64,000 nucleotides of DNA, taken from assembly GCA_022842935.1 (NCBI GenBank), contig JALHOP010000003.1, positions 124,001-188,000 of the forward strand, given 5' to 3'. Below are positions 1,346 to 18,981 of this stretch, in pieces. The notes below the pieces were generated by a model. That model was not told the origin of the DNA. It was given only the letters and a program-made list of their open reading frames with translations, and searched no databases. The stretch is from Myxococcota bacterium. GTDB taxonomy: Bacteria; Myxococcota; XYA12-FULL-58-9; JALHOP01. A program made the translations under genes and the position numbers. Within the stretch, counting starts at the first letter, position 1. Every line of letters begins with the position of its first letter.

Positions 1346-2928
1346 AAGCTGATTTGGTACACGCGCGAGTGGGTCGGCGTCACCATGACCGCCGCAAGCT
1401 GGCCCTTGCGCTGGACGATACGAGCGAGGCCCCCCACGTAGGGCGAGCTACCGACATGCTCCCAGCGACCGGAGAGGCTGTTCAGGTCGAGCTGGTAGAT
1501 GTCAAAACTCGGCTTGCCGTCCGCGCCGAAGCCGCCAACGTAGGTGATCTTCTCTTCCGACAAGAACACCTGGCCCACGCCTACTGCTTTCGGTAGCGAG
1601 GGTAACGTGTACCACTTTTCGCCTTGGACCGTGTCGCACAGGTAGAGCTTGCCGTCGCGCGCGTTGCCCGGCCCGACGACGAAGACGCGGCGGTCCGAGG
1701 CGACCGAAGCGCCGGTCGTGTCAGTCGGTGGCCCGCTACGTTCGATCCACTTCATGTTCTGCAGCTTGCGGAAGGCGCGCTGGTGGACTGGCATGCGCAG
1801 GCTGTCGCCTTGCTTGTCTTGCGCGAGCTTGCTGACGCCGTCTGTCACATAGATCTCACGATCCACGCGCGCGACGACCGCCCATGCCGCAGGTTTCGCC
1901 ATCGTGGGGCCGTTACGCCAGTGCTCGGGCCCGAAGCCAGAGGACGAAGCGCTGGAGAGAGAATAGACGAAGACCTCAGGGCTCGTGGTGCCATCACGGT
2001 AGGCGCCGCCGTAGAGGCGGACCTCGTCGTCGACGACTGTCATCGTGACGCCGTTGGGTGGGAGCTCGGGCGTTGGGATCTCGCGGAAGCAGGCGCGGCC
2101 GCCGACGCTATCCTCGATCCACAAGCGGGTGCGCCCGCCTTCGCCACGCTGGCTCGTGAGCACGACGATGCGATCGCGCCAGACCGCGACAGAGCACAGG
2201 TCGTCGGCAAGACCAGCCGGGGGACCGGCGAGCTCAGTCGCTTTACTGCGCGTGGTGCACAGGCTGCGCAGCTCAGCCGACAGCCCCTGCGAGCGGGCGC
2301 CGCTACTGCCAAAGCTAAAGAGACTACCGAACAGCGATTTTTCGACGACCGTCTGCGGCTGCCGTGCCGTGCGCAACAAGAGGTCAACGACGGATGCGGT
2401 TTCCTTGGCGACGTTGCCTTCGTCGAGCAGGTCGGTACCGCGCATCAGCGCCGCGTCACCATCTTTGACGTGAACCGTGAGCGGCATGGGCTGTCGTCCA
2501 CCGTAGAAGACATCGAGCCACTTCTCGAGTGCGCCTGTGCGTATCTCTTCTTGTTTCCAGGACGGATGGCGCTGGGAAGAGGCTTCGCCGAACGTCGATG
2601 ACGCTTCGCGCAGCCGGTCTGGAGTCACGCGGTCGCGGGCGACAGGAGGGAAAACCCACGTCTCGGTGGTTCGAGACGCACGCGCGTGGACGATGGGGAA
2701 AAGATGCTCGCCGGCTGCTATGGCGTACACTGTGTCGTTGGCGCGCCGGCCCGTGCTGAGCTTCTCTGCTGGACCCTGCGCCATGGCTTCACAGAGCGGT
2801 GCGATGATCTGCTTGTGGATGGCCGGCAGATCCTCGTTGGCGTTCGCCCCGCCTACGGAGCGCAGAGTTTCGATGCTCCGACGGAGGCCGGGTGCTTCGA
2901 AAATGGGGAATGGATGCGATTGGATCAT
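1342..2928 (-). CDS. Kelch-like beta-propeller protein with unknown N-terminal domain
   Basis: This 528-residue protein has an N-terminal half of about 250 residues that I do not recognise. The C-terminal half has repeated blade-like blocks (VRLYGGAYRDG, VFVVGPGNARDG, ITYVGGFGADG) with spaced tryptophans, as in Kelch or galactose-oxidase-type propellers. I chose the ATG at 2928, which opens MIQSHPF; an in-frame GTG at 2937 overlaps the upstream stop as GTGA and is equally possible. Either way it lies directly behind the giant AAA+/VWA gene and is coupled to it. No signal peptide is seen, so it is probably cytosolic. In eukaryotes the MIDAS domain of midasin binds propeller proteins (Rsa4, Ytm1), so this protein is a natural candidate client or adaptor; that is inference. 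Confidence 0.75.
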   Translation of the reverse strand: MIQSHPFPIFEAPGLRRSIETLRSVGGANANEDLPAIHKQIIAPLCEAMAQGPAEKLSTGRRANDTVYAIAAGEHLFPIVHARASRTTETWVFPPVARDRVTPDRLREASSTFGEASSQRHPSWKQEEIRTGALEKWLDVFYGGRQPMPLTVHVKDGDAALMRGTDLLDEGNVAKETASVVDLLLRTARQPQTVVEKSLFGSLFSFGSSGARSQGLSAELRSLCTTRSKATELAGPPAGLADDLCSVAVWRDRIVVLTSQRGEGGRTRLWIEDSVGGRACFREIPTPELPPNGVTMTVVDDEVRLYGGAYRDGTTSPEVFVYSLSSASSSGFGPEHWRNGPTMAKPAAWAVVARVDREIYVTDGVSKLAQDKQGDSLRMPVHQRAFRKLQNMKWIERSGPPTDTTGASVASDRRVFVVGPGNARDGKLYLCDTVQGEKWYTLPSLPKAVGVGQVFLSEEKITYVGGFGADGKPSFDIYQLDLNSLSGRWEHVGSSPYVGGLARIVQRKGQLAAVMVTPTHSRVYQISL

Positions 2929-2933
2929 GATGG

Positions 2934-5900
2934 TCACTTGCCCACGGTCTGGCGCGCGCGCTCCCAGCAGCGGAGGGCGACGTTCGCGAACTGGTGAACG
3001 AACTGTGCGAGGTTGCGCGCATAGAGCGCATGGTCGCCGAACTGGAGCACACCTTTGCACTCGGCGCCGACGCCGGCGGCGATGACACTGTAGCCCTTGG
3101 CGACCGCGGCTTGCAGCGTCTTGTGCGTCCCAGGCAGACCCTGACCGTCGCCGAACGACACGATCTGGCCGATGTCGGCCTCGAGCATATCGAGCAGCGC
3201 CGCGCCTTCAGCGATGCCTCGCTCGTCGTCGGTCGCGTCGCCTTCGCAGCGGATCTGATGCAGCAGGTGCGCCTTGAGCTCCTCGTTCCAATCCTGGTCG
3301 AAGCCCGCGTGCAAACGCACACGCTCGGAGTAGCCGATGACCGCGATCTTGATGTTCGGGTCCACCGCTTTGAGGGCGTCGCCGTAGGCGATCATCGCCT
3401 CGATATTGGCGCGGGCCTTGTCGCTGTCTCCCATGCTGGAGGACTCGTCGATGGCGAGCACTACCTGCGCGCGGATCTCGTCGCTCCCCTTCTTCTTCTT
3501 GAAGATGCGGGACGGTGGCATGCCTTGCGCGAGCCCCGCGACGTAAAGCGGCAACTGCTGTTCGTCGAGCAGCGGACCCGATAGCTGCTTGCGCATGAGC
3601 TGCATGCCGCCAGCACGCGGCAGCGACATCGAGACGGCGTCGCGTAGACGCGCGGCGGTACCATCGCGCTGATGTTTGGAGGCGAGCTCGGTGACCTGAG
3701 CGCGGCACTGGCGGTAGCTTGCCGTCGCCGTCGCCTTCCGCTGAGCCTGCTCGAGGCTCTTGCACGCGGCATCGTAGATGGCGCGCGTCGCCGTTTGGTC
3801 GATGTCGCGCGCGTCGCCTGTTGCGCCGAGGACCTCGCCCGGCTCACTGACCGCCGGGAGATCGTGTCCCATGCGCAGCGACGCCGCCATCGGGCCAATC
3901 GAAGACGCAGCCGACAACGGCACATCGAGGAAAGCCGTGCCAATGCCGGAGCCTTTGGCTTCGACCCGTCCGCGGAAGCGGCCCTGGTTACTGACGAGGC
4001 AGCGTGTGAGTAGACTTGCTGCGCCGTCGACCGCAGCTCGGAACGAGCTCACGTGCAGGCCGAAATCACCAGCGACTGTTCGGACGTTGTCGGCAGCACC
4101 GAAGCCAAGCATCGCGACGCCTACGCCGTTGGCGCGCGCCTGGTCGATGAGGGCGCGGATCTCGCTCGCGTTGTTCACCTGCGCGTCGGTCATGATGAGC
4201 AGCAGCTTGTCATTGGCTTTCGTTGTGAACTGACCGAGTCCGGTGTTGATGGCCGGCTTGAGGATCGTGCCACCGCCTGCGTTACCGCAGACGCGATAGG
4301 TCGCGTCGGCGACGTCGGCGGTGAGCGGCTGGCTCATCGCCTTGTGCACCCAGACCTGAGCGTCCTCCATATTGGTGCCTGGGACGTAACTGCCGATGCC
4401 GACGTTGTTGCCGAAGCCCAGGATCGCGCAGTTCCCTTCACTGCCCATCAAGGCGCCCATGGTCAACGCCACGACGGCCTGCTCGTGCTGAACGATTTGA
4501 CCTTCGGTCGAGCCTGATTGGTCGTGGATGACGACGAGCTCGCACGGATGTTGGCGCAGTACCGTACGCAAAGTGTCGACCAACCCCGGGTTCGCCGCGA
4601 TGAACTGCTCGAACGCGTTTTTCGGTCGCGTTTCGCTTGGCGACGCCCCGACCAAGCGCTGCGCGGCCAAGGCGGCCTGCATCTCGTCGATGGTGTTCTG
4701 GACGGCGACCTCGCTGAGCTCGATGACCTCGATTGTGGGGCGACCGGTGGATGCGCCTTCTCCGATCGTGCCCTGCTGGACGTTGAGCTCTCCGGTCGGC
4801 GTCGAGCCGTCCTTCAGAGGGGCGTCTCCCATGGGCTCCGGGGCGGGCGGTGTATCGACTGGTTGTACGCCTCCACCACCACCTCCACCCGAGCCGTCGC
4901 CGACGGCAGCGCCACCGTGAACCGCGCCGCTGGCTCCATTGGGTGCTTTGCTCCCGAACGACCCGGTCACCGCGCCGGCAGCGCCTCCGCTGCTACTACC
5001 AGCTGACGTGCCGCCCTCTGACCCTGACCAGGTCGCGGTAGGTGTACGGCCCATGTTGGGCGTTGCGGTCGCTTGGATGTCGGCGCGCGGCGCAGCGATC
5101 TCGAGACCGCGAATGCTACCGCTGAAGTACTTCGACGCGACACTTGCCACCTGACGTGCGACCGAGCGTGCTTCGACGTCGATCAAACCCAGCACTGCGT
5201 CGACGACGGTCTGCGCCTGCTGCAGGGTCGTGACGTTCGGCTTGTTCTTGCCGAGCTTGCCCAGATACTCGCGGAGCTTGAGAGCCATGCCCTCGAAGTG
5301 GTCGCTCGACTTCGCGTCTTTTGCGTAGCGTTCGGCTTCGGCATGCAGGGCGCTCAGGGCGTCCGAGACCTTCTGAATCTCGCTACCGATGCCAGGCGTC
5401 GAAAGCGCCTTCTGCGCAGCGTCCGTAAGGTCGACCACTGCCGCTGCGACGCGTCCAGCGTACGGACCTGTAGCAAGAGCGCTTGCGGCGCGAGCGGCCT
5501 CGACGAGCTCTTCGACGAGTGCGACCGGGCTACCCGCCGTCGAATCGTATGCCGCGAGGGCGCGCTTTGATGCGTTCAGGCGAGCGATCGCCGATTCGCG
5601 ATCCTTGAGGTAAGGCGCGATGCCAGTGACGAAGTGGTCGGCTACCCGGGCGGCGTCGTCATTGAACAGCTCGCCGTGCAGCGCGCGCAGATGGGCCTCG
5701 ATATCGCGACCCGCGGCTGCGAGCGTCCGTTGGTCAGCGGCGAACGCCGCCGTGCGATCAATCGCGACCTCGATCGCCGCGACGAGCTTGTGGCGCTCGA
5801 GCGAGCCGAGGCACACCTCGTCGATCGTCTCAGCGAGCTTGAGGTAGTGAGCGAGCTGAGGGTCCGTCACCTTCGGCTGAGCGTCCATCTGGGCACCCAG

Positions 5901-8900
5901 CTCAGTGAAGGCCGCAGCAATCTCCGCAAGGCAGCGCTCCGCCGTGGCGGTCGGGACAGTTTGGGCCAACTCGTCCCGGAATCCCGTCGCTCGAGCGGAC
6001 AGTTCGCTGGCTCCTTGCGCCTGCGTGCCGGTCAACCCCAAGGCCAGCTGGCCCAAGCGGGCGGACATGCTGTGCAGCAGGGCTCGGCGTGAGTAGGCGG
6101 TGAGTAGAACCCCGTCGGTGCCAACCGCGTTGATGATCTCGGCGAGGCGTTCCAGGGCCATCGCGTCGTGGCCACCACCGCCACCATTGCCCTTGGAGGC
6201 AAGCTCTTGCACTTCGTCGAGCTGCGAACGGGCACCCATAGCGAAGCGTGTGACCTCGCGCGAGAGAAGCCCGTTGTCGAAGACGAGTTTCAGCTCACGG
6301 CCGGTGTGCACGACCTCGGCGAGCTTCGCCGTTGCGGCGGCGGGAAAGAGAGCGGAGGGTTCGACGACGGCGAGGACTTTGTCGAGGGCGTCGAGAGCAC
6401 GATCGAGGCTCGTGTGTAGCAACGGAGTGTCGGTATCGCTGCTGCGTGCAAGCGTATCGAGTGCGTCTTTGGCGGCGTTGATGCTCGCCGAGGCGCGCGT
6501 CCAGGTGCTGCCCTGCGTCGCTTGCTCGAGGGTCGCGAGCAACGTGCGGGCTTGGCTGTGCGCCTGCGTGAGGCGCTCACCGGCCTGGACCGTCCGCTCG
6601 AGCATCTTGTCCATCGCGCTACGGACCTGACCTCGCCCGGAGTCGGCCTCGCGGCGGCTGGTATGCTGCGGCTCCTTGAGGCCAAGGCTCGCCAGGTCGA
6701 TGAGGCGTAGCTCGGTGTCACGGACCTGCATCGGCTGCGCTGACATCGGCGTAATGATGCGCGATAGCACCGTGGCTGCGACCGCCTTGTCGCCGGTCGC
6801 GAAGGCCTCGCCTTCGAGCGCGTTACGGATGCGCTCGCCGTGGCTTCCCCCGCGACTGCTGCCTGCCGAGAGCAGCTCGAAGATGGCATCGACTCCAGCA
6901 TCCTGCAGGGTGACAGACTTCGCTGTCGTCTGCGCGCCGAGAAAGGCACGCTTGAGCTCGACGATCTCACGCTCTAGTTGTTGCAACGCTTCGTCCGGTT
7001 TCGCGGATTTCGCGGCTTCCTGATAGCGCTGGAGCGTCTGGTCGAGCGCGGTGATGCAGGAGCGGGTCGACTTGTCGCGCAGCGGCTGCTGCCGGATGAC
7101 TTGGGCCGCGCGCATGGTCGCTTCGATGACGTTCGCGAATCCATGAGCGATGCCAGACTTCGCCGCGAAGCGCGACGAGAGGGTGTCGGCTATTTCGGAG
7201 AAAGCCGCGACACGCAGCAACAGATTGCGTGCGGTAGCATCCGGCCCCAGGCGAGCGATCGACGCTTGCAAGGCGCCAGCGATCTCCGGGTTCTCGCGAG
7301 AGGCTTGGTGGAGGGCGGCGTAACGTGACGAGGCAAGGCCCAACGTGTCCGAGCTCGCGAGCACGTCTTCGATGGCACCGCAGCTCGCGATGTGACCTTC
7401 GAGCGGCGAGATGTCGGGTAGGCCCGCCATCGCCTGCGAGATGCGCGCGTCGAGCTTGGCGAGCGCTTGTCGCACGAGGTCACACGCGCGGGTCCGCTGC
7501 GGCGGTTCGTGCTTCTGCAAGTACAGCGGGGTGCCACCGGCTTCGAGCGGCCGCGAAAAGCCGAAGCGGCGGCGCAGGCCGTCGCCCCAGGCACGCGCTT
7601 CACCCTCGGCGGTGCGCAGAGCGGCACGAGCCTCTTCGAGGACCTTCGTCGTCTCGGGATCGGCGGCGTCGCCGAGTTGGGTCCCCAAGAGTTGCAGATC
7701 CTTGCCGAGGGCAATCGCGGCCATGGCTGCACGACTGGCCGTCCGCTCGATAGCGCTCTCGACGCGTTCGCGATAGGCGGTTTCGTATTCCTCGGCCTTC
7801 TTCTTCTCGAGCTCAGCGAAGACTTTCTTCTTGGTCTCGGCGATGCGCGATGCGCTCTCGTTGACGAGGCGGGCCATGTCGCGCTCGTATTCTGCTTGGG
7901 CGCTGCTCGGAGCCTGGGGCTCGATCGCCTGTGCGAGGCCGGTGTCTCCGAGCTCGAGGTCGTAGCCCGCGAAGAACTTGTCGACCGCGGGCGCTTTGCG
8001 CCGCAGAGTGGCTTCGGCGAGCTTTGCGAAGAGCTCGGAGCGCGCGGCTTCGAGCTTGTCGCTCTCGCTGCGCTCGGCCTCGCGCTCGGCCTCCGCTTCG
8101 AGCTCGGCTTTGCTCGGGCGCACGGGCGCGTCGACACGAATCGGACCCTCGGGAAGGTTCAGGAACTCCGCACGTTCGAGCTCGCTGGCGTTCGTCTTGA
8201 TGCGCGAGAGGCTCGCAAGCGCTTCCTTGGCGGCGCGCAGCGTCTTCACGTTGCCGAGGTGAGCGAGCAGGTCGTCAACGACCTCGCGGGTTCCACGCTG
8301 CGCATCGGCGACCGCGCGGCGAAGGTCGGCTGATTGCTCAGCGATACGAATGCCTTCGAGAGCCGAGCCGGCCGCGCGCAGAGACGCGAGCAGGCCTGTG
8401 ACTTCCTCGCGGGACGCGCCGCGGTCATCGTGCGCCTCGCGCAGAGCATCGAGGGCAGTGTGGAGCTCCGCGAGATGACCGCGAAGCTGGTGGTGATTCT
8501 TGAACAGAGGTGTGCTCGTCACCCAGTCCCAGCGCTCGATGACCTTCTCATAACGCTCGTGTAAGACGTTGTCAGTGCCGCCGCCGTGCGTACGGTAGGC
8601 CTCGAGGGCCTGCTCAACGGACTCGCGCACCTGACGAATCGTGTTCTCGGCTGCGCTTGCTTCGAAGCGCTCGGTCACCGCGCCGAGCTCGCGGCGGGTC
8701 GACGTGGCGACCTCGGAGCCGAAGCCCTCACAGAGGGCGAACGCGTCGACATAACGGCTGACGATCTCGCAGCGATGCTCGAGGTCCCAGAGGCGGGCGC
8801 CGCGCATGAACTCGAGGACGTCACCCTCGACAGCCTTGTCGACCAAGCCGCTGTCGTCGATGGTCTTGATGAGTCGATTGGCGGCCGATCGCGCTTTGCT

Positions 8901-11900
8901 ACTGATCTCGGACGCCGGGTCGGTGTCGAGCACGTCGCTGCAAGCACGTTCGATCTCCGCCGGCAGAATGCCGCCGGTCGGCAGACGACCGACGAGCATG
9001 CGCAGGTCGGAGTCGTTGCCGGCCTCGATGACCTGGGTGAGCGCCTCTTTGGCGGCCTTGAGCACGCGCGCAGTTAGCGGACCGGCGACCTGGTCGTAGT
9101 CCTTCTTCAAGGTCGCAAGGTGCGGGTTCGCGACGATGTCGACGGCGTTCGAGCTATGGGCGGTAAGGACCCCCGAGGTTCCGTAGAGTTGTGCCAAACA
9201 CACGTTGACTGCGGCCGCGACAGCGTCCCGAGATGACAGTCGGTCGACCGGGGCGAGCACATGACGGACGACCGCACTGGTTACGACTTGTTCGAGGTTT
9301 GCCTTGGGGGCGGCGGCGCCACGGGCGACGTCACTCGCCATCAGCAACAGGCGTCGCCCGTCAAAGCGGACGACTTGGCGATTCTGCAGGCTGACGCCGG
9401 CGAGGCTCGCATCGGCGGCGGCGATTAGGTCGACGAACGCGGTCGCCATGGCGGTGCCGCCGGGGACGCCGGCGAGGACGTGGCCGGTTAGCGCGATCAG
9501 ATCGCGTCGCTGCGTGACGGGTTCGGCGCGAACGCGCGTGCAAGCTGCGGCAAGCTCCTGTGGGAGCGGCGGGTCACCGGTCGCGGTCTGCAGAACCAGA
9601 CGCAAGCGTTTCTGTTGCACCTCGAGCTTGCCATCACGGATGCGCTCGACGTTGTCGGTGGCGGCGACTTCCGAGAGCCGCATGAGTACGTCGCGTGGCA
9701 AGCGCGCGGCGTTACGAATCAGTAGAATCGCGGCCTCTCGCTGAGCACGCCAAACCAGACCCTCGTAGCGCTCGAAGCGTCCGTCGTCGTTCTGCACCAG
9801 GCCGCCGAAGAGCGACGACTCGGTGAGCTCTTCGTTGCCTTCGATCTCGATGACCTCGGAGGCCGACAGACGCGCCAAGCTCTGGATGGCTGCGCGGCCG
9901 ACGAATCCGTCACCGTGGACATGGAGCGACTCGCCGAACTGGGCGGCAGCAAATCCTTTGCTTTGGATCTCGTCGAGACCCGCAACGCTTGGCAAGATTG
10001 CCTCGTGATCGGGCACGCCGCTGCGGATGCCGCGGCTGTCGCGCGGCACTGACCAGTCGCCAAAGCGGACGAAGTGCTGGGTCGCCGACACGTCGGTGCC
10101 GGTCGCCGGTGCGATACCTTCCGAGATGAAGCGCTTGGCCAAGCTCGAGAACAAGGCCCGGTCGCTCTCATTGTCGAAGCGCTCACCATAGACGTCGAGG
10201 ACGAGACGGTGCAACGTCTCCACTTCGTCGGTGACGGCCCCCTGCGCGGTCAGATGCTTCAGGCGCCGCGCCACGGCCTCCGCGTCACGGTTCAGGAACG
10301 AGCCGATGGCGAGAGCCGATGCGAACTCGCCCTTACGCAAGAGCTCGTTCATACAGATGTGGAAGCGAGCCAAAAGACGTGCGGAGTCGACCGAGATCTG
10401 CGTGCGGTGGTGGATGTTCTCCAAGAGCTCAGAGGCGGACCGCGACAAAACTTCTTGGGTCGCGGCCTGAGCGCGTGTCGACAAAAGCGGAGTGAGGAGA
10501 CGATTCTCGAGCGCTGGAGAGAACTCGTGGGGCGCGCCTGGCTTGCGCAGCATGATCATGCGGAAGCCTGGGTGGGCCTTGATGGCGCGTGCCGAGCGCG
10601 GCAGCTCGATGGACTGACGGCCGTCGCCCAGGGAGTTCAAGCGCTCGAGCTTGTTACTCGGCACTGAGCCGCAGCCGCGCAGGACGAGCAGGTGACCATT
10701 GCGAACGGCCTGGGCGATCTCCTGCATCTCGGGCGTAAAGCCGCCTTTGACGGTCGGATCGTCAGTGAGGACGAGCTTCTCGATGAGGAGATCGATGTCC
10801 GTGTTGGGCGTCAGGGTGACAACGACGAGGCGCTTACCGAGGAGCCGCGCATATTCGCGGAGCGTCTCCATCGACTCGCCGTTCGGGTCGTCCGTGAGCG
10901 AAATCGGCCGGCCCCGTCCCATGATGTCGGAGTCGGCGATGCACGCGAGGTTTTGGACACGCGCGGGGGTGAGCGGGAAGCGCTCGTTCGACGGGCGCCA
11001 TGGCGTCTCGGCGCCAAGCGGTACGCGGGTGTTGCCGAACCAGACCGCGTCGCCTTCGGGGCGTGGCACGAGCAGCTCGACGGCGTCACTCGCGCTCTGA
11101 CCGAAGGTGCGCGTCATGCGCGCGAGCGCTTCAGCCTGGAGCTCGGGAGGAATCTTTGAGAGGAGGTTCGTCTCGGTCGCGCGCATCGCCGCGGCGGCGA
11201 CTCCAGTGCTACGCCGCTTCTCCGTGTAGAACTCGATGAACGATGACAAGAGGCGCGGCGTAAGCGGTGAGGCGCCGCCTCCCGCCTGCAGAGTTCGTAG
11301 ATCGTCGAAGAAGGAGACCAGGCGGGCGACCTCTTCGGGTGAGGTCAAGCGATCGGAGGTTACGGCGTTGGCTTCTGCCACCTTCATCGCTTCGATCGAC
11401 AGCGAGCCGGCGGGGACCATTCCCGCGACACGTGCCGCCGACTGCGGATCTTTCGCCTTGACCAGCATCGCCGAGAGCAGCTCGCGCACGGGCGCGAACT
11501 TGTCGCCCTTGAACTGCCAGAACGCCGAAGCGACGGCGCGCTCCTGTTCCGGCGTGAGGTCGTAGATTGGCGTCGTGAGGAGGGCCAACTCGAATGTCTT
11601 CTTGAAGTTGGCCTCGTCGCGCTTGCCGACGCCGACGAGTTTCTTCAAGAACGTCATCACGCCTTTGGGCGGCTCGACATCGATGCAAGCGAGCTTGAAC
11701 GCGTCCCCGAAGGCGTTCCCGGGGCGGCAGAACGCCATGATCGCATCACGTGCGTTATTGCGGTCGGATGTCTCGAAGCTCGTAGGCGAGCGCAGGAGCT
11801 CACGTCCCGGTGAAGTGCAGTAGTCGCGTTGGGCGATCTCGTTGAGCTCGTCGAAGCCACGCGGCTCGCGGATGCCCAAGATGACCAGCCGGCTTGCTTC

Positions 11901-14900
11901 GGGATCCGAGAACCCGTCGGCGCGGATGTCGTCGCCATTGGTGGTGAAGATCTGGCGAAACTCCGCGTGCCACCGGTCCTCGGGTGGGCAGTCCTTGCGG
12001 CGCAGTTTGCGCGGCGGCCGTGACGGAACCTGAATCTCCGAGCCTTCGGTGACCGGGTTGAGTGACTCGCGCGTCTGGTTCGGGAGCGTGAGGAGCTCGT
12101 CGCCAACGTACCACGCGCCGATCTGCGCCGCGATGGCGAGTGGTGACTCCTGAAAGCGCACGTCGCCCTCAGGCGTGATCACCGTGGTACCGAAGATGTT
12201 CTCCTCCGACATGTCGGCGTTGTACGCTTGCTCGAGCAGTGGCTGGTTGAGGTGATGTGCGAGATAGCGGACGAGCATGGTCTTGCCCGAGCCGGTAATG
12301 CCAACGATGGCGAGCGGCTGACCGACCTCGAGGGCCACGAGCGCGTCTTCGAGAAATTCGAGCTGCGCGCCAACGGGCTCTCCGATGCGGTCTTTGCCAG
12401 GCACCATGGCTTGTTGAACCGGATCGGCGATCTCGCGCACGGCCTTACGCGCCGCGCCGATCTGCAGATATGCGACACCATCGATGGTGACGCGCTCGAC
12501 CGTCTTGGCGCGCGTCAATTCGGAGACGTCGGCTCCGAAGTGATGCTTGACGAGCTTGTCGTAGACACGCCGAGTGCCTTCAGGCGACTGCAGGAGGCCG
12601 CGGATGAGTCGCAGGGTCTCACGACCCAGGATGCGCCGCTGCTCGTTCGGGTCGGTGACGCCGTCCCGCTTGATGTAATACTCAGCCCGCTGCGCGACCT
12701 TGAGCATATCGCGCTCGGTGCAGGTGAGCGGTCCGAACGACGCGCCGAGTTGGTCGCGCTGCTCGCTTTTGATGCCCTCGAGCTCGACGAAGAACTTGGC
12801 GATGGAGAGGACAGGGTCGAACGATTTTTCGGCGCGCAGGCCGCCCGCTGCGCTGGTGCGCCAGTGGCGTGGCAGGCCACATTGTGACGCCACGATGTCG
12901 GCGCGCTCGGCGACTGGCTTCTCGCGCACGACGACGCGGAACATGCAGTCGTCGATGACTGGTGGCTGCTCTTTGCGGCCGCGCGTGCCGAGCGGATTCT
13001 CAGCGAAGTAGAGGATGGAGGCACCGATCGATTGCGGAAGGCCGGTATCCGGGTCGATGACCGCACGGCGATGGTCGAGCAGCGACTTCATGCTCATCAT
13101 CGCTTCGGTGCTGAGGTTGCGTTCGTCGCCGATCCAGGCGCCTTCGGACTCGAGCGTGGCGCGGATCACGGGACCCGAGACCTTCTGGAAGCGCACGCCA
13201 TCTTTGGTCGGCATGGGCGACAGACCGCCGTACAGATCCGACGCTTCGGTCGCTGCGGAGAAGTTGAATCGCTCCGGCTTCTTGTCCGCGATGGCAGCCC
13301 AGAGCACACCGAGGACTGTCTTGCCGGCCGCCGCCTTGCCCACCGTGAGCACCGGTCGTTGCAGCTTGTAAGCGAGCGCGAGCGGCAGAAGGCTGTCGCG
13401 CATGCTGGGCGTTAGATCGTAGCCGGTGCTAGAGACGCGACGACTCACTTCGCTTTGGGTGAGACCCATCACCTGCATCCACAGCGGTGGCTCGCCATCG
13501 ACCAGGGCAGGCAGCTTAGCGAGAGCTGGGCTCTTGGTTTCGTCGAAGAGCAGGCGCGCCGCGTGTGCTACGGCCTGGTCTGCCGGCACGAAGTCGGCGA
13601 GCAGGGTCGCGGCGCCGGCGAAGTCGCGGAAGCGCTGCAGCTTGTTCAAGCCAAGCTGCGGGGCTTCTGCATGAATCTCTTTTGCGACGCACTTGATGAT
13701 TTCACGCACCTCCGGAGTTGCACGCTCAGGCACGAGGGTGAACGTGTCGTCCAAGGTCGGCGCGTCGAAGCGGATTTCAGTAAGGAGCGCCCGCTCGCGC
13801 GCCGGCGGGGGGCGGCGTGTGCGGTCTGTTCCCGCGGTCGCCGAGAAGTAGATGCGGGTGTCGGGGTGGACCGGCACGGTCACCACCTGACCATCGCGCA
13901 TGATCGTGACGGTGGTCTTCTCGACCAAGCGCATGAGAGCCTCTTGGCGCTCGGTCGAGACGTGATCGATGTGGTCGAAGTAGAGAATCTTGCCGTTCAG
14001 AAGCGCGTCGGTGATGACGCCCGGCACGAACTCGAAGCCGCCGCCGTCCTTGAAGATTGGGCGTTCGATGAGGCTCTGCGGATCGATGCCGGGATGGCAG
14101 GTGACGGTGACAACCTCGCGCCCGAAGCGCCGGCCGAGCTCGGTGACGAGGCTCGTGGCACCGGCTTGGCCCGGTGCGGTGAAGAGCACCGGCTCACCAG
14201 CCCGGTGCGCGGCCTCCGCCTGCGCCATGGCTTCGATTTGCTCGCCGATGGGCGTCCAGTCAGCGTTTGCATGCGGGGCTACCGCGCGACGTGGCTCGGG
14301 AGAGCCGTCGCTCGTGATCACGGCGCGCAAGGCTGCGCGTGAGGACTCGTTTTGGAGCCGGGTGCCGTACACACCCCAGATGGCGTCCGCCACGTCTTGT
14401 GGCTGCGGCGTCGAGAGGCTGTTCAGACGACGGGCGACGCGCTCGAGAAGCGGATAGGCAACGGGGAATCCGCGCCCGAAGTCGATTTGCTGCTCGGGCT
14501 GATCGCTCACCTGTCGCCGCGTGATCTCCTCGTGTTTGTCCGCGAGCTTGTTGGCGAGGGATCGGCTGATGCCGACGCGCTCGGTGAGCAGGCTGACATG
14601 GTCGTCGCGGGTGTAAGACGCCACCTCGGTGTTGGCGCACTCCGACGTGAGCTCGGCGCTGCAGCGCACGCGGTTGCTGGTCATGAGCACGAGGCGGAAG
14701 TCGGGATGCACTGGGATGATGCGGCCAGAGACCGGGTGGTGGAACTCCTTGACGCCCTTGGCGAGCCCCGAGAGGATCGCGAGCACGTCTTTTTCGGCTT
14801 GCTCCAGGCACTCAGCGACGAAGACGCCGCCGTTCATGATGCATTCGGTGAGCGGGCCGTGATGCACGCGCAAGCGACCTTGCGCATCCGGACGCAAGGC

Positions 14901-15410
14901 GCCGGCGAGTGCGTCGAGGGAGGTAATGCGCGAGATCCGGTGGTGGCGGTAGGGCGTGCCGGCGACTTCGAAGAACCAGCGCGCGGTCGCCCCGCCGTCG
15001 ACGCCCTCGGGGAGCGAAGCAAGAGCGGGCACACCCGACTCGAGCACGTCGGCGAGGGCACGGATGAGGTCACGCTGCGGCTGCAGGATGGTCAGCTCGC
15101 TCGCCTTCTCGGGGGCGATCTGCCACGTCCGTTCGCCCACCTGTAGCTGCCCGGCGCGGACCCTGACGTTGAGGTTCGCTTCGAGAGACTTCGCGAGGCC
15201 CTCTTGCGTGACCTTCGTCTCCCGCGCCTGGTTGACGGCGCGGTGGGTCCGGTCGAGAACGTCGGCCACGACCCGCTGCACCTTCTGCTGGCGCGCGCCC
15301 TCGGGCTGGCTCGGTGTTTCGGGTTGCGTGCCGCGATCGGATGCCGGAGCGCTGTCACTCGCCGCAGGTCGCTGCCATGGTTTGAAGCCTGATGCAGCGG
15401 TGTCGGTCAT
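2934..15410 (-). CDS. Giant midasin-like AAA+ ATPase: six AAA+ modules, helical linker, two VWA/MIDAS domains
   Basis: The protein has about 4,158 residues from the ATG at 15410 (MTDTAASGF). Six consecutive modules resemble the MoxR/midasin/dynein clade of AAA+ proteins. P-loop regions lie near residues 132, 410, 691, 1036, 1505 and 1830. Only modules 3 (GKAAAGKT, with GDE near 755) and 4 (GITGSGKT, with GDE near 1097) keep intact Walker A and B motifs; the others are degenerate. Residues of about 2100-3450 are mostly charged helix and coiled coil. A Gly/Pro-rich hinge near 3460-3520 follows, then VWA 1 (DQSGS near 3627, TDA near 3737) and VWA 2 (DESSS near 3985), both with DxSxS MIDAS motifs. 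No signal peptide or membrane segment is seen. The order (six AAA+ modules, linker, C-terminal MIDAS) is that of eukaryotic midasin. It is probably an ATP-driven remodelling machine of unknown substrate. Confidence 0.88.
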   Translation of the reverse strand: MTDTAASGFKPWQRPAASDSAPASDRGTQPETPSQPEGARQQKVQRVVADVLDRTHRAVNQARETKVTQEGLAKSLEANLNVRVRAGQLQVGERTWQIAPEKASELTILQPQRDLIRALADVLESGVPALASLPEGVDGGATARWFFEVAGTPYRHHRISRITSLDALAGALRPDAQGRLRVHHGPLTECIMNGGVFVAECLEQAEKDVLAILSGLAKGVKEFHHPVSGRIIPVHPDFRLVLMTSNRVRCSAELTSECANTEVASYTRDDHVSLLTERVGISRSLANKLADKHEEITRRQVSDQPEQQIDFGRGFPVAYPLLERVARRLNSLSTPQPQDVADAIWGVYGTRLQNESSRAALRAVITSDGSPEPRRAVAPHANADWTPIGEQIEAMAQAEAAHRAGEPVLFTAPGQAGATSLVTELGRRFGREVVTVTCHPGIDPQSLIERPIFKDGGGFEFVPGVITDALLNGKILYFDHIDHVSTERQEALMRLVEKTTVTIMRDGQVVTVPVHPDTRIYFSATAGTDRTRRPPPARERALLTEIRFDAPTLDDTFTLVPERATPEVREIIKCVAKEIHAEAPQLGLNKLQRFRDFAGAATLLADFVPADQAVAHAARLLFDETKSPALAKLPALVDGEPPLWMQVMGLTQSEVSRRVSSTGYDLTPSMRDSLLPLALAYKLQRPVLTVGKAAAGKTVLGVLWAAIADKKPERFNFSAATEASDLYGGLSPMPTKDGVRFQKVSGPVIRATLESEGAWIGDERNLSTEAMMSMKSLLDHRRAVIDPDTGLPQSIGASILYFAENPLGTRGRKEQPPVIDDCMFRVVVREKPVAERADIVASQCGLPRHWRTSAAGGLRAEKSFDPVLSIAKFFVELEGIKSEQRDQLGASFGPLTCTERDMLKVAQRAEYYIKRDGVTDPNEQRRILGRETLRLIRGLLQSPEGTRRVYDKLVKHHFGADVSELTRAKTVERVTIDGVAYLQIGAARKAVREIADPVQQAMVPGKDRIGEPVGAQLEFLEDALVALEVGQPLAIVGITGSGKTMLVRYLAHHLNQPLLEQAYNADMSEENIFGTTVITPEGDVRFQESPLAIAAQIGAWYVGDELLTLPNQTRESLNPVTEGSEIQVPSRPPRKLRRKDCPPEDRWHAEFRQIFTTNGDDIRADGFSDPEASRLVILGIREPRGFDELNEIAQRDYCTSPGRELLRSPTSFETSDRNNARDAIMAFCRPGNAFGDAFKLACIDVEPPKGVMTFLKKLVGVGKRDEANFKKTFELALLTTPIYDLTPEQERAVASAFWQFKGDKFAPVRELLSAMLVKAKDPQSAARVAGMVPAGSLSIEAMKVAEANAVTSDRLTSPEEVARLVSFFDDLRTLQAGGGASPLTPRLLSSFIEFYTEKRRSTGVAAAAMRATETNLLSKIPPELQAEALARMTRTFGQSASDAVELLVPRPEGDAVWFGNTRVPLGAETPWRPSNERFPLTPARVQNLACIADSDIMGRGRPISLTDDPNGESMETLREYARLLGKRLVVVTLTPNTDIDLLIEKLVLTDDPTVKGGFTPEMQEIAQAVRNGHLLVLRGCGSVPSNKLERLNSLGDGRQSIELPRSARAIKAHPGFRMIMLRKPGAPHEFSPALENRLLTPLLSTRAQAATQEVLSRSASELLENIHHRTQISVDSARLLARFHICMNELLRKGEFASALAIGSFLNRDAEAVARRLKHLTAQGAVTDEVETLHRLVLDVYGERFDNESDRALFSSLAKRFISEGIAPATGTDVSATQHFVRFGDWSVPRDSRGIRSGVPDHEAILPSVAGLDEIQSKGFAAAQFGESLHVHGDGFVGRAAIQSLARLSASEVIEIEGNEELTESSLFGGLVQNDDGRFERYEGLVWRAQREAAILLIRNAARLPRDVLMRLSEVAATDNVERIRDGKLEVQQKRLRLVLQTATGDPPLPQELAAACTRVRAEPVTQRRDLIALTGHVLAGVPGGTAMATAFVDLIAAADASLAGVSLQNRQVVRFDGRRLLLMASDVARGAAAPKANLEQVVTSAVVRHVLAPVDRLSSRDAVAAAVNVCLAQLYGTSGVLTAHSSNAVDIVANPHLATLKKDYDQVAGPLTARVLKAAKEALTQVIEAGNDSDLRMLVGRLPTGGILPAEIERACSDVLDTDPASEISSKARSAANRLIKTIDDSGLVDKAVEGDVLEFMRGARLWDLEHRCEIVSRYVDAFALCEGFGSEVATSTRRELGAVTERFEASAAENTIRQVRESVEQALEAYRTHGGGTDNVLHERYEKVIERWDWVTSTPLFKNHHQLRGHLAELHTALDALREAHDDRGASREEVTGLLASLRAAGSALEGIRIAEQSADLRRAVADAQRGTREVVDDLLAHLGNVKTLRAAKEALASLSRIKTNASELERAEFLNLPEGPIRVDAPVRPSKAELEAEAEREAERSESDKLEAARSELFAKLAEATLRRKAPAVDKFFAGYDLELGDTGLAQAIEPQAPSSAQAEYERDMARLVNESASRIAETKKKVFAELEKKKAEEYETAYRERVESAIERTASRAAMAAIALGKDLQLLGTQLGDAADPETTKVLEEARAALRTAEGEARAWGDGLRRRFGFSRPLEAGGTPLYLQKHEPPQRTRACDLVRQALAKLDARISQAMAGLPDISPLEGHIASCGAIEDVLASSDTLGLASSRYAALHQASRENPEIAGALQASIARLGPDATARNLLLRVAAFSEIADTLSSRFAAKSGIAHGFANVIEATMRAAQVIRQQPLRDKSTRSCITALDQTLQRYQEAAKSAKPDEALQQLEREIVELKRAFLGAQTTAKSVTLQDAGVDAIFELLSAGSSRGGSHGERIRNALEGEAFATGDKAVAATVLSRIITPMSAQPMQVRDTELRLIDLASLGLKEPQHTSRREADSGRGQVRSAMDKMLERTVQAGERLTQAHSQARTLLATLEQATQGSTWTRASASINAAKDALDTLARSSDTDTPLLHTSLDRALDALDKVLAVVEPSALFPAAATAKLAEVVHTGRELKLVFDNGLLSREVTRFAMGARSQLDEVQELASKGNGGGGGHDAMALERLAEIINAVGTDGVLLTAYSRRALLHSMSARLGQLALGLTGTQAQGASELSARATGFRDELAQTVPTATAERCLAEIAAAFTELGAQMDAQPKVTDPQLAHYLKLAETIDEVCLGSLERHKLVAAIEVAIDRTAAFAADQRTLAAAGRDIEAHLRALHGELFNDDAARVADHFVTGIAPYLKDRESAIARLNASKRALAAYDSTAGSPVALVEELVEAARAASALATGPYAGRVAAAVVDLTDAAQKALSTPGIGSEIQKVSDALSALHAEAERYAKDAKSSDHFEGMALKLREYLGKLGKNKPNVTTLQQAQTVVDAVLGLIDVEARSVARQVASVASKYFSGSIRGLEIAAPRADIQATATPNMGRTPTATWSGSEGGTSAGSSSGGAAGAVTGSFGSKAPNGASGAVHGGAAVGDGSGGGGGGGVQPVDTPPAPEPMGDAPLKDGSTPTGELNVQQGTIGEGASTGRPTIEVIELSEVAVQNTIDEMQAALAAQRLVGASPSETRPKNAFEQFIAANPGLVDTLRTVLRQHPCELVVIHDQSGSTEGQIVQHEQAVVALTMGALMGSEGNCAILGFGNNVGIGSYVPGTNMEDAQVWVHKAMSQPLTADVADATYRVCGNAGGGTILKPAINTGLGQFTTKANDKLLLIMTDAQVNNASEIRALIDQARANGVGVAMLGFGAADNVRTVAGDFGLHVSSFRAAVDGAASLLTRCLVSNQGRFRGRVEAKGSGIGTAFLDVPLSAASSIGPMAASLRMGHDLPAVSEPGEVLGATGDARDIDQTATRAIYDAACKSLEQAQRKATATASYRQCRAQVTELASKHQRDGTAARLRDAVSMSLPRAGGMQLMRKQLSGPLLDEQQLPLYVAGLAQGMPPSRIFKKKKGSDEIRAQVVLAIDESSSMGDSDKARANIEAMIAYGDALKAVDPNIKIAVIGYSERVRLHAGFDQDWNEELKAHLLHQIRCEGDATDDERGIAEGAALLDMLEADIGQIVSFGDGQGLPGTHKTLQAAVAKGYSVIAAGVGAECKGVLQFGDHALYARNLAQFVHQFANVALRCWERARQTVGK

Positions 15411-15506: not shown

Positions 15507-15777
15507 CGGCTGCCCGCACGCCGCAAGTCCCCGCAAAGAGTGTCATTGTGGCACTTCCGGGGGTGACCTCGCGCTCGCGGCCGCAAACCGCTGGGATTGC
15601 TGCGATCGCCACTCCGTCACGCAAGCGCGATCGCTCCGCGAGTGCCCTGGGCGTTGTTGGCATGATCTTGGCAAACGCCGCCAGCCCGCGGCTCGATCGC
15701 TCGATGCGGCGAGAGCGTCGACGACGATAGGCGGGAGCCTGGCCAAACCCCCCGGATCCGCGTAATGGAGCGCACGC

Positions 15778-18981
<3,204 letters not shown>

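Follow-up and report, generated by a model that had tools for sequence, protein, structure and literature searches.

We report a bacterial giant protein that is probably a single-chain, pseudo-hexameric AAA+ mechanoenzyme of the midasin type, with two working ATPase sites and a pair of VWA domains that would pull on a client. Midasin is the giant ATP-driven machine that eukaryotes use for finishing ribosomes. The bacterial protein appears to have been concatenated within bacteria, in parallel to midasin. Its gene lies in a 64,000-nucleotide stretch of a Myxococcota contig, called the window below, and the host genome is a 6.28 Mb draft. Positions refer to the window unless another locus is named.

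The gene fills an intact minus-strand frame, which is also open from an alternative TTG start at 15536 to the stop at 2934. GC content at codon positions 1/2/3 is 0.69/0.48/0.80, is alike in each 300-codon block and resembles that of neighbouring real genes. Because this signal is uniform and like that of the neighbours, we read the frame as one real gene and not a chimera, so the single protein of about 4,158 residues described in an earlier note on this DNA stands. The plus-strand reading of 2934-15410 was dropped, as it has many stops and is on the wrong strand. A divergent carB (15778-18981) sits 368 bases from the giant gene. Directly downstream, on the same strand, is a kelch-repeat gene (1342-2925, minus) that could share the transcript. 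When synteny was traced via carB, the neighbours were not conserved, and no conserved partner gene or syntenic relative hinting at a client was found.

Features of the giant gene and its protein, with positions in the window
Feature	Window positions	Strand	Residues	Remarks
Giant gene, complete	2934..15410	-	4,158 aa	ATG at 15410, stop at 2934; from open frame and codon-phase GC
AAA+ module 1	14685..15059	-	118-242	Walker A lysine absent; Walker B reads VAE; catalytic motifs lacking
AAA+ module 2	13848..14231	-	394-521	APGQAGAT without lysine; FDH replaces DE; best match midasin AAA1/AAA3
AAA+ module 3	12906..13430	-	661-835	GKAAAGKT, GDE, sensor-1 N; site looks competent; best match midasin AAA5
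AAA+ module 4	11889..12338	-	1025-1174	GITGSGKT, GDE, sensor-1 N, EASR finger; site looks competent
AAA+ module 5	10479..10985	-	1476-1644	Walker A/B dead; ENR arginine finger intact at 10497-10517
AAA+ module 6	9591..9965	-	1816-1940	GDGFVGRAA; Walker B dead
Linker	5091..8903	-	2170-3440	1,270 residues, 2.6% proline, high helix propensity
Gly/Ser-rich tether	4641..5093	-	3440-3590	150 residues, 30% G+S, 9% D+E
VWA domain 1	4086..4538	-	about 3625-3775	Pfam VWA; MIDAS DQSGS at residue 3630 (4506-4523)
VWA domain 2	3111..3464	-	3983-4100	Pfam VWA match at about 3983-4089; MIDAS DESSS at residue 3988 (3432-3449)

Six AAA+ modules are found by two routes. Pfam AAA_5 matches the whole protein in six stretches (E 3.4e-47), and each module scanned singly gives one match (E 2.9e-3, 5e-11, 6e-5, 7e-16, 4e-4 and 2e-4 for modules 1-6). 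Profile A3, built from eight modules of other bacteria with no eukaryotic or window sequence, matches the protein at exactly six places with 15-41 bits; the best score on locally shuffled copies of the protein is 2.2 bits. The six places span residues 118-242, 394-521, 667-814, 1026-1159, 1476-1637 and 1816-1916. A3 was used in place of profile A1, which contains module 3 of the window protein and whose scores on that protein are circular.

Only two of the six sites look competent. The ATPase motifs are complete in modules 3 and 4 alone; neither a Walker A lysine nor a working Walker B is present in the other four. Besides the arginine fingers of modules 4 and 5, module 2 has an arginine at the same place. 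In dynein and midasin rings, the ATP site of each module is completed by the next module. The intact sites of modules 3 and 4, with the fingers of modules 4 and 5, thus form a pattern that would fit a ring with two working sites.

Sequence comparison supports placing the modules in the midasin-type AAA+ clade rather than with MoxR, NorQ or CobS. With phmmer, the whole protein matches midasin first among PDB sequences (E 7e-40), then NorQ and CbbQ, with dynein absent at E<=0.1. For module 3 alone midasin is the sole significant PDB match (E 2e-28 over all stretches, the best of which scores 39 bits against AAA5), with no MoxR, and no NorQ or CbbQ at E<=1. In a mixed set of candidates, modules 1, 2, 3 and 5 score best with midasin and modules 4 and 6 with giants from Omnitrophota. 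For all six, MoxR is more distant than midasin and the multi-module proteins of bacteria, by a small margin for 4 and 6, and identity to the matches is low (about 20-25%). Scored with A3, midasin reaches 767 bits (AAA3 alone 170), compared with about 104 for dynein, 81 for NorQ and 74 for CobS. Part of this closeness is selection, since the A3 modules were picked via a profile containing midasin, but the gap to the MoxR-type proteins is large nonetheless.

Structure models agree on the fold. AlphaFold predictions from ten-sequence alignments have a mean pLDDT of 68.5 for modules 3-4 and 55.8 for modules 5-6, with module 6 weak. Foldseek places single-chain dynein motors first for both models (about 800 columns, E 1e-15 for 3-4; about 700 columns, E 5e-12 for 5-6), and for modules 3-4 the Rea1 ring is a further match (E 1.2e-13). 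With moderate TM-scores (0.4-0.5), the models show a tandem AAA+ fold but not its detailed geometry.

The C-terminal half begins with a linker that is predicted to be helical from composition alone and has no family match in Pfam and no sequence match in the PDB. Beyond the tether, both VWA domains have the downstream MIDAS threonine and aspartate. VWA2 scores 39 bits with the VWA domain of an Omnitrophota giant (G213), 29 with that of an operon in the phylum UBP9 and 23 with that of midasin. Its best PDB chain is 8ql1, followed by another midasin chain (E 0.003 and 0.1); from our own reading of the printed sequence, we take the aligned residues of 8ql1 to be a human-type midasin MIDAS. For a second midasin MIDAS (6qt8), the nearest domain outside midasin is the UBP9 VWA. 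The ATPase modules and VWA2 therefore seem to point to one lineage.

These results bear out most of what the earlier note had read from the letters. Its six modules, their midasin/dynein type (they are nearer to midasin and the bacterial midasin-type clade than to ordinary MoxR/NorQ) and its two C-terminal VWA domains with DxSxS MIDAS motifs were all recovered. Neither a different number of modules nor an unrelated AAA+ clade emerged from Pfam, the A3 profile or Foldseek searches of the models. The long helical region it described corresponds to the low-proline linker, with helicity remaining a prediction from residue composition.

Relatives of the same plan were found in other phyla. Within the host's own phylum, a search of 195 genomes gave single MoxR-like modules and no long relative. 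As a query against genome contigs, viral contigs and plasmids the window protein gave no match; the pattern-based scans among these used unconserved peptides, so their negative outcome carries little weight. Profile A2, built from midasin AAA3/AAA5 and one module of G090 (a Deltaproteobacteria MAG of the host's phylum; contig JAHFDP010000054.1), matched 28 bacterial loci. In UBP9 MAGs (L066, L068 and L069), an AAA gene with two modules (about 770 aa) stands immediately before a separate VWA gene, whose product is about as long and has the MIDAS motif DESGS; modules of this kind occur in 8 of 148 genomes of the phylum. Single-module genes of about 950 aa that likewise precede a VWA gene are also among the A2 loci.

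Other matches are far longer. G195, a MAG labelled Chlamydiae from a phylum of which 44 genomes were covered, encodes six modules and a VWA domain in a frame of 6,885 aa. A second giant in G195 has six weaker modules and a VWA domain, and its alternate modules lack catalytic motifs. In Omnitrophota, strong matches occur in 18 of 237 genomes, mostly in frames of 4,000-16,000 aa. Four of these genomes (G213, G215, G225 and G244) have exactly six modules each, followed by a VWA domain with a DxSGS MIDAS. In a further Omnitrophota genome, G196, the modules are divided between two contigs (two and four), which may carry parts of a single gene split by assembly.

Several further loci were recorded. 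The two different six-AAA plus VWA giants of G195 (L122/L123 on G195:C54 and L124 on G195:C21) share one 2.2 Mb MAG. In L126 (G196:C23, Omnitrophota), whose frame spans 6,123 aa or more, numerous HEAT-like repeats and what look like membrane segments precede two C-terminal midasin-type modules. G090 has a second two-module copy that an in-frame TAG interrupts (L064:8693-10849, G090:C39); the intact copy lies on another contig and has 76% identity to it in the matched module. A CobS-like AAA protein on a viral contig (L063:6837-8768, plus) matches a midasin-type profile. The host genome itself carries a split giant ATPase-VWA pair (G000:C3, about 450.9-463.4 kb): a frame of 1,976 aa that contains two AAA_5 modules (L050:6938-12865, minus) adjoins a HEAT-like protein of 2,165 aa whose C-terminal part has the VWA-like motif DNSGS (L052:893-7387, minus). 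It also has two large AAA proteins that look CbbX/SpoVK-like by eye, one of 1,036 aa beside this pair (L052:10751-13858, plus) and one of 1,620 aa (L031:345-5204, plus).

We compared module histories in a tree of 68 modules and 165 columns. Midasin AAA2, AAA4 and AAA6 cluster (97 and 89), as do the even modules of the giant G195a (100), apart from its odd modules. The odd and the even modules of G196 also cluster separately (81 and 99). Read from these sequences, the pattern is that of an A/B pair repeated three times, separately in the midasin, G195a and G196 lineages. Gene conversion within a chain, from module to module, is another possible source of odd/even grouping. Position-by-position orthology was rejected in all six registers for midasin/G195a, midasin/G196 and G195a/G196 (p-AU at most 0.0024). 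Because it fails in every register, six-fold concatenation appears to have been independent in midasin and the tested giants (G195a and G196). The midasin plan, thought to be eukaryotic, thus seems to have arisen repeatedly in bacteria.

The modules of the window protein sit on long branches and do not follow the odd/even grouping of G195a and G196. Modules 2 and 5 pair (72), modules 4 and 6 pair (62) and module 3 falls weakly beside midasin AAA5 (43). One-to-one grouping of modules 1-6 with midasin AAA1-6 was not recovered (p-AU 0.17). The values for monophyly (p-AU 0.47), placement within the midasin clade (0.41) and shared odd/even groups (0.36) are higher, and none of the four hypotheses was rejected. 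The choice between homologue and parallel fusion, which the earlier note had left open, is thereby answered by p-AU for the giants G195a and G196, where concatenation appears to have been independent, and for the window protein all four hypotheses stand.

We propose the following mechanism. The six modules would close into one ring. ATP would be bound and hydrolysed at module 3, to which module 4 would lend its finger, and at module 4, for which module 5 would do the same, with modules 1, 2, 5 and 6 playing a structural part. Ring movement would swing the helical linker and so move the VWA pair on its flexible tether. The MIDAS metal of the VWA domains would hold an acidic side chain of the client, which would be pulled from or into a large complex. 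The six modules, the intact sites, the fingers of modules 4 and 5 and the two MIDAS motifs on which this scheme draws are read from the sequence, and the tandem fold of modules 3-4 from a predicted model. There is a precedent in Rea1, where ATP hydrolysis makes the linker engage the MIDAS domain docked on the ring, and where the favoured model has force passing from the ring via the linker to MIDAS (PMC11603028). We found nothing that links the window protein to ribosomes. Its most likely origin is concatenation, within bacteria, of a midasin-type ATPase and VWA pair.

The main question of origin is whether the protein could instead be a true midasin orthologue, either acquired from a eukaryote or inherited from a six-module ancestor shared with midasin, and later degraded at four sites. 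The number and order of modules and the C-terminal MIDAS are those of midasin, four modules score best with midasin modules, and placement inside the midasin clade was not rejected. Yet the midasin modules that match best do not stand at the corresponding positions: module 2 goes with AAA1/AAA3, module 3 with AAA5 and module 5 with AAA3. Large H2 inserts are missing from the even modules, Pfam scans bring neither the lid nor the linker family of midasin above the cut-off, VWA2 is nearer to bacterial VWA domains and codon composition is native. On this sequence evidence the protein is not demonstrably a midasin orthologue, and we consider orthology improbable. Parallel concatenation within bacteria is favoured because it was found in other giants, because the best partners are out of register and because the H2 inserts, acidic tether and linker of midasin are absent.

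Other explanations concern function. An in-cis chaperone for metal insertion or enzyme activation, like NorQD, CbbQO or CobST with ring and VWA fused, is unlikely, though it merits some weight: all of these combine a MoxR-clade AAA+ with a VWA domain, NorQ and CbbQ are the next-best PDB matches, and NorQD is reported to work by a twisting mechanism (PMC13036017). Against it stand the score gap, seen in the lack of NorQ/CbbQ matches to module 3, and a long linker and tether with no counterpart in those small systems; inspection of the neighbourhood found no metalloenzyme operon beside the giant gene. The same inspection found no adjoining effector, VMAP, iSTAND or FtsH-type partner, and PADLOC matches are weak only (E 0.013), which leaves very little room for a conflict or defence system built on MoxR-VWA pairs of the VMAP type, even though multicellular bacteria, some deltaproteobacteria among them, commonly have such systems (PMC7159879). 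The protein could also be a largely inert scaffold, comparable to the many giant bacterial ORFs that lack an explanation, with modules reduced by decay to structural domains. Four of six modules do lack catalytic motifs, and selection is not measurable as no relatives were found in the same phylum, but modules 3 and 4 keep every catalytic motif with the completing fingers and both MIDAS sites are intact, so we regard inertness as quite improbable. A working mechanoenzyme with two active sites remains the reading we prefer.

Beyond the earlier note, we found what appears from sequence to be a bacterial clade of midasin-type modules, ranging from a two-module AAA gene beside a VWA gene to six-module plus VWA giants. 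A search of the open-access literature found no description of bacterial midasin-type giants. The main Omnitrophota study reports giant ORFs with function unassigned and does not mention AAA, VWA or midasin (PMC10066038). We give an even chance to a broader view: a bacterial class of midasin-like machines in at least three phyla, from operons of a two-module ATPase and a VWA protein to six-module plus VWA chains, in which six-fold concatenation occurred several times independently and eukaryotic midasin is another product of the lineage. The known AAA+ rings made of six modules in a single chain belong mainly to eukaryotic giants, midasin and dynein among them. Bacterial proteins of the same plan, with a possible two-gene precursor, would let one ask how a symmetric ring became an asymmetric chain. 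The same comparison would bear on whether the eukaryotic ribosome-maturing machine came from a bacterial remodeller.

The window protein shares with midasin (Rea1/Mdn1/MDN1) six AAA+ modules of one clade per chain, a long linker, a flexible tether and a C-terminal MIDAS. The midasin tether is about 600 residues long and Asp/Glu-rich, whereas that of the window protein is short and Gly/Ser-rich. The Rea1 linker has stem, middle and top parts, and the window linker shows no Rea1 homology in sequence searches of the PDB or Pfam. There are two VWA domains, compared with one in midasin, and two competent sites (modules 3 and 4), compared with four in Rea1 (AAA2-AAA5; PMC11603028). Midasin AAA2, AAA4 and AAA6 carry large helix-2 inserts (PMC6920918), unlike modules 2, 4 and 6 here, which align without them. 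The midasin lid family PF17867 gave no hits, but as the control was silent too, this result carries no information.

Dynein heavy chain is likewise a six-module single-chain ring and is the best Foldseek match of modules 3-4 and 5-6, but it is far weaker by sequence and has a stalk and buttress instead of VWA domains; Pfam scans of the window protein found no stalk or microtubule-binding family. MoxR, NorQ, CbbQ and RavA with their VWA partners share the AAA+ clade and the coupling to VWA, but they are single-module homohexamers with a separate VWA protein, whereas here six modules and VWA lie in one frame. VWA8 also joins several AAA modules and a VWA domain in one chain, but by its published description it has two AAA modules (PMC10743472). 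The UBP9-type operon has midasin-type modules and a MIDAS, with two modules instead of six and the VWA domain in the following gene. The bacterial six-AAA plus VWA giants (G213, G215, G225, G244 and G195) share with the window protein six midasin-type modules and then VWA in one chain, and its VWA2 is nearest to theirs; their modules are mostly well kept, with odd/even grouping within a protein where tested, whereas those of the window protein are divergent and unpatterned.
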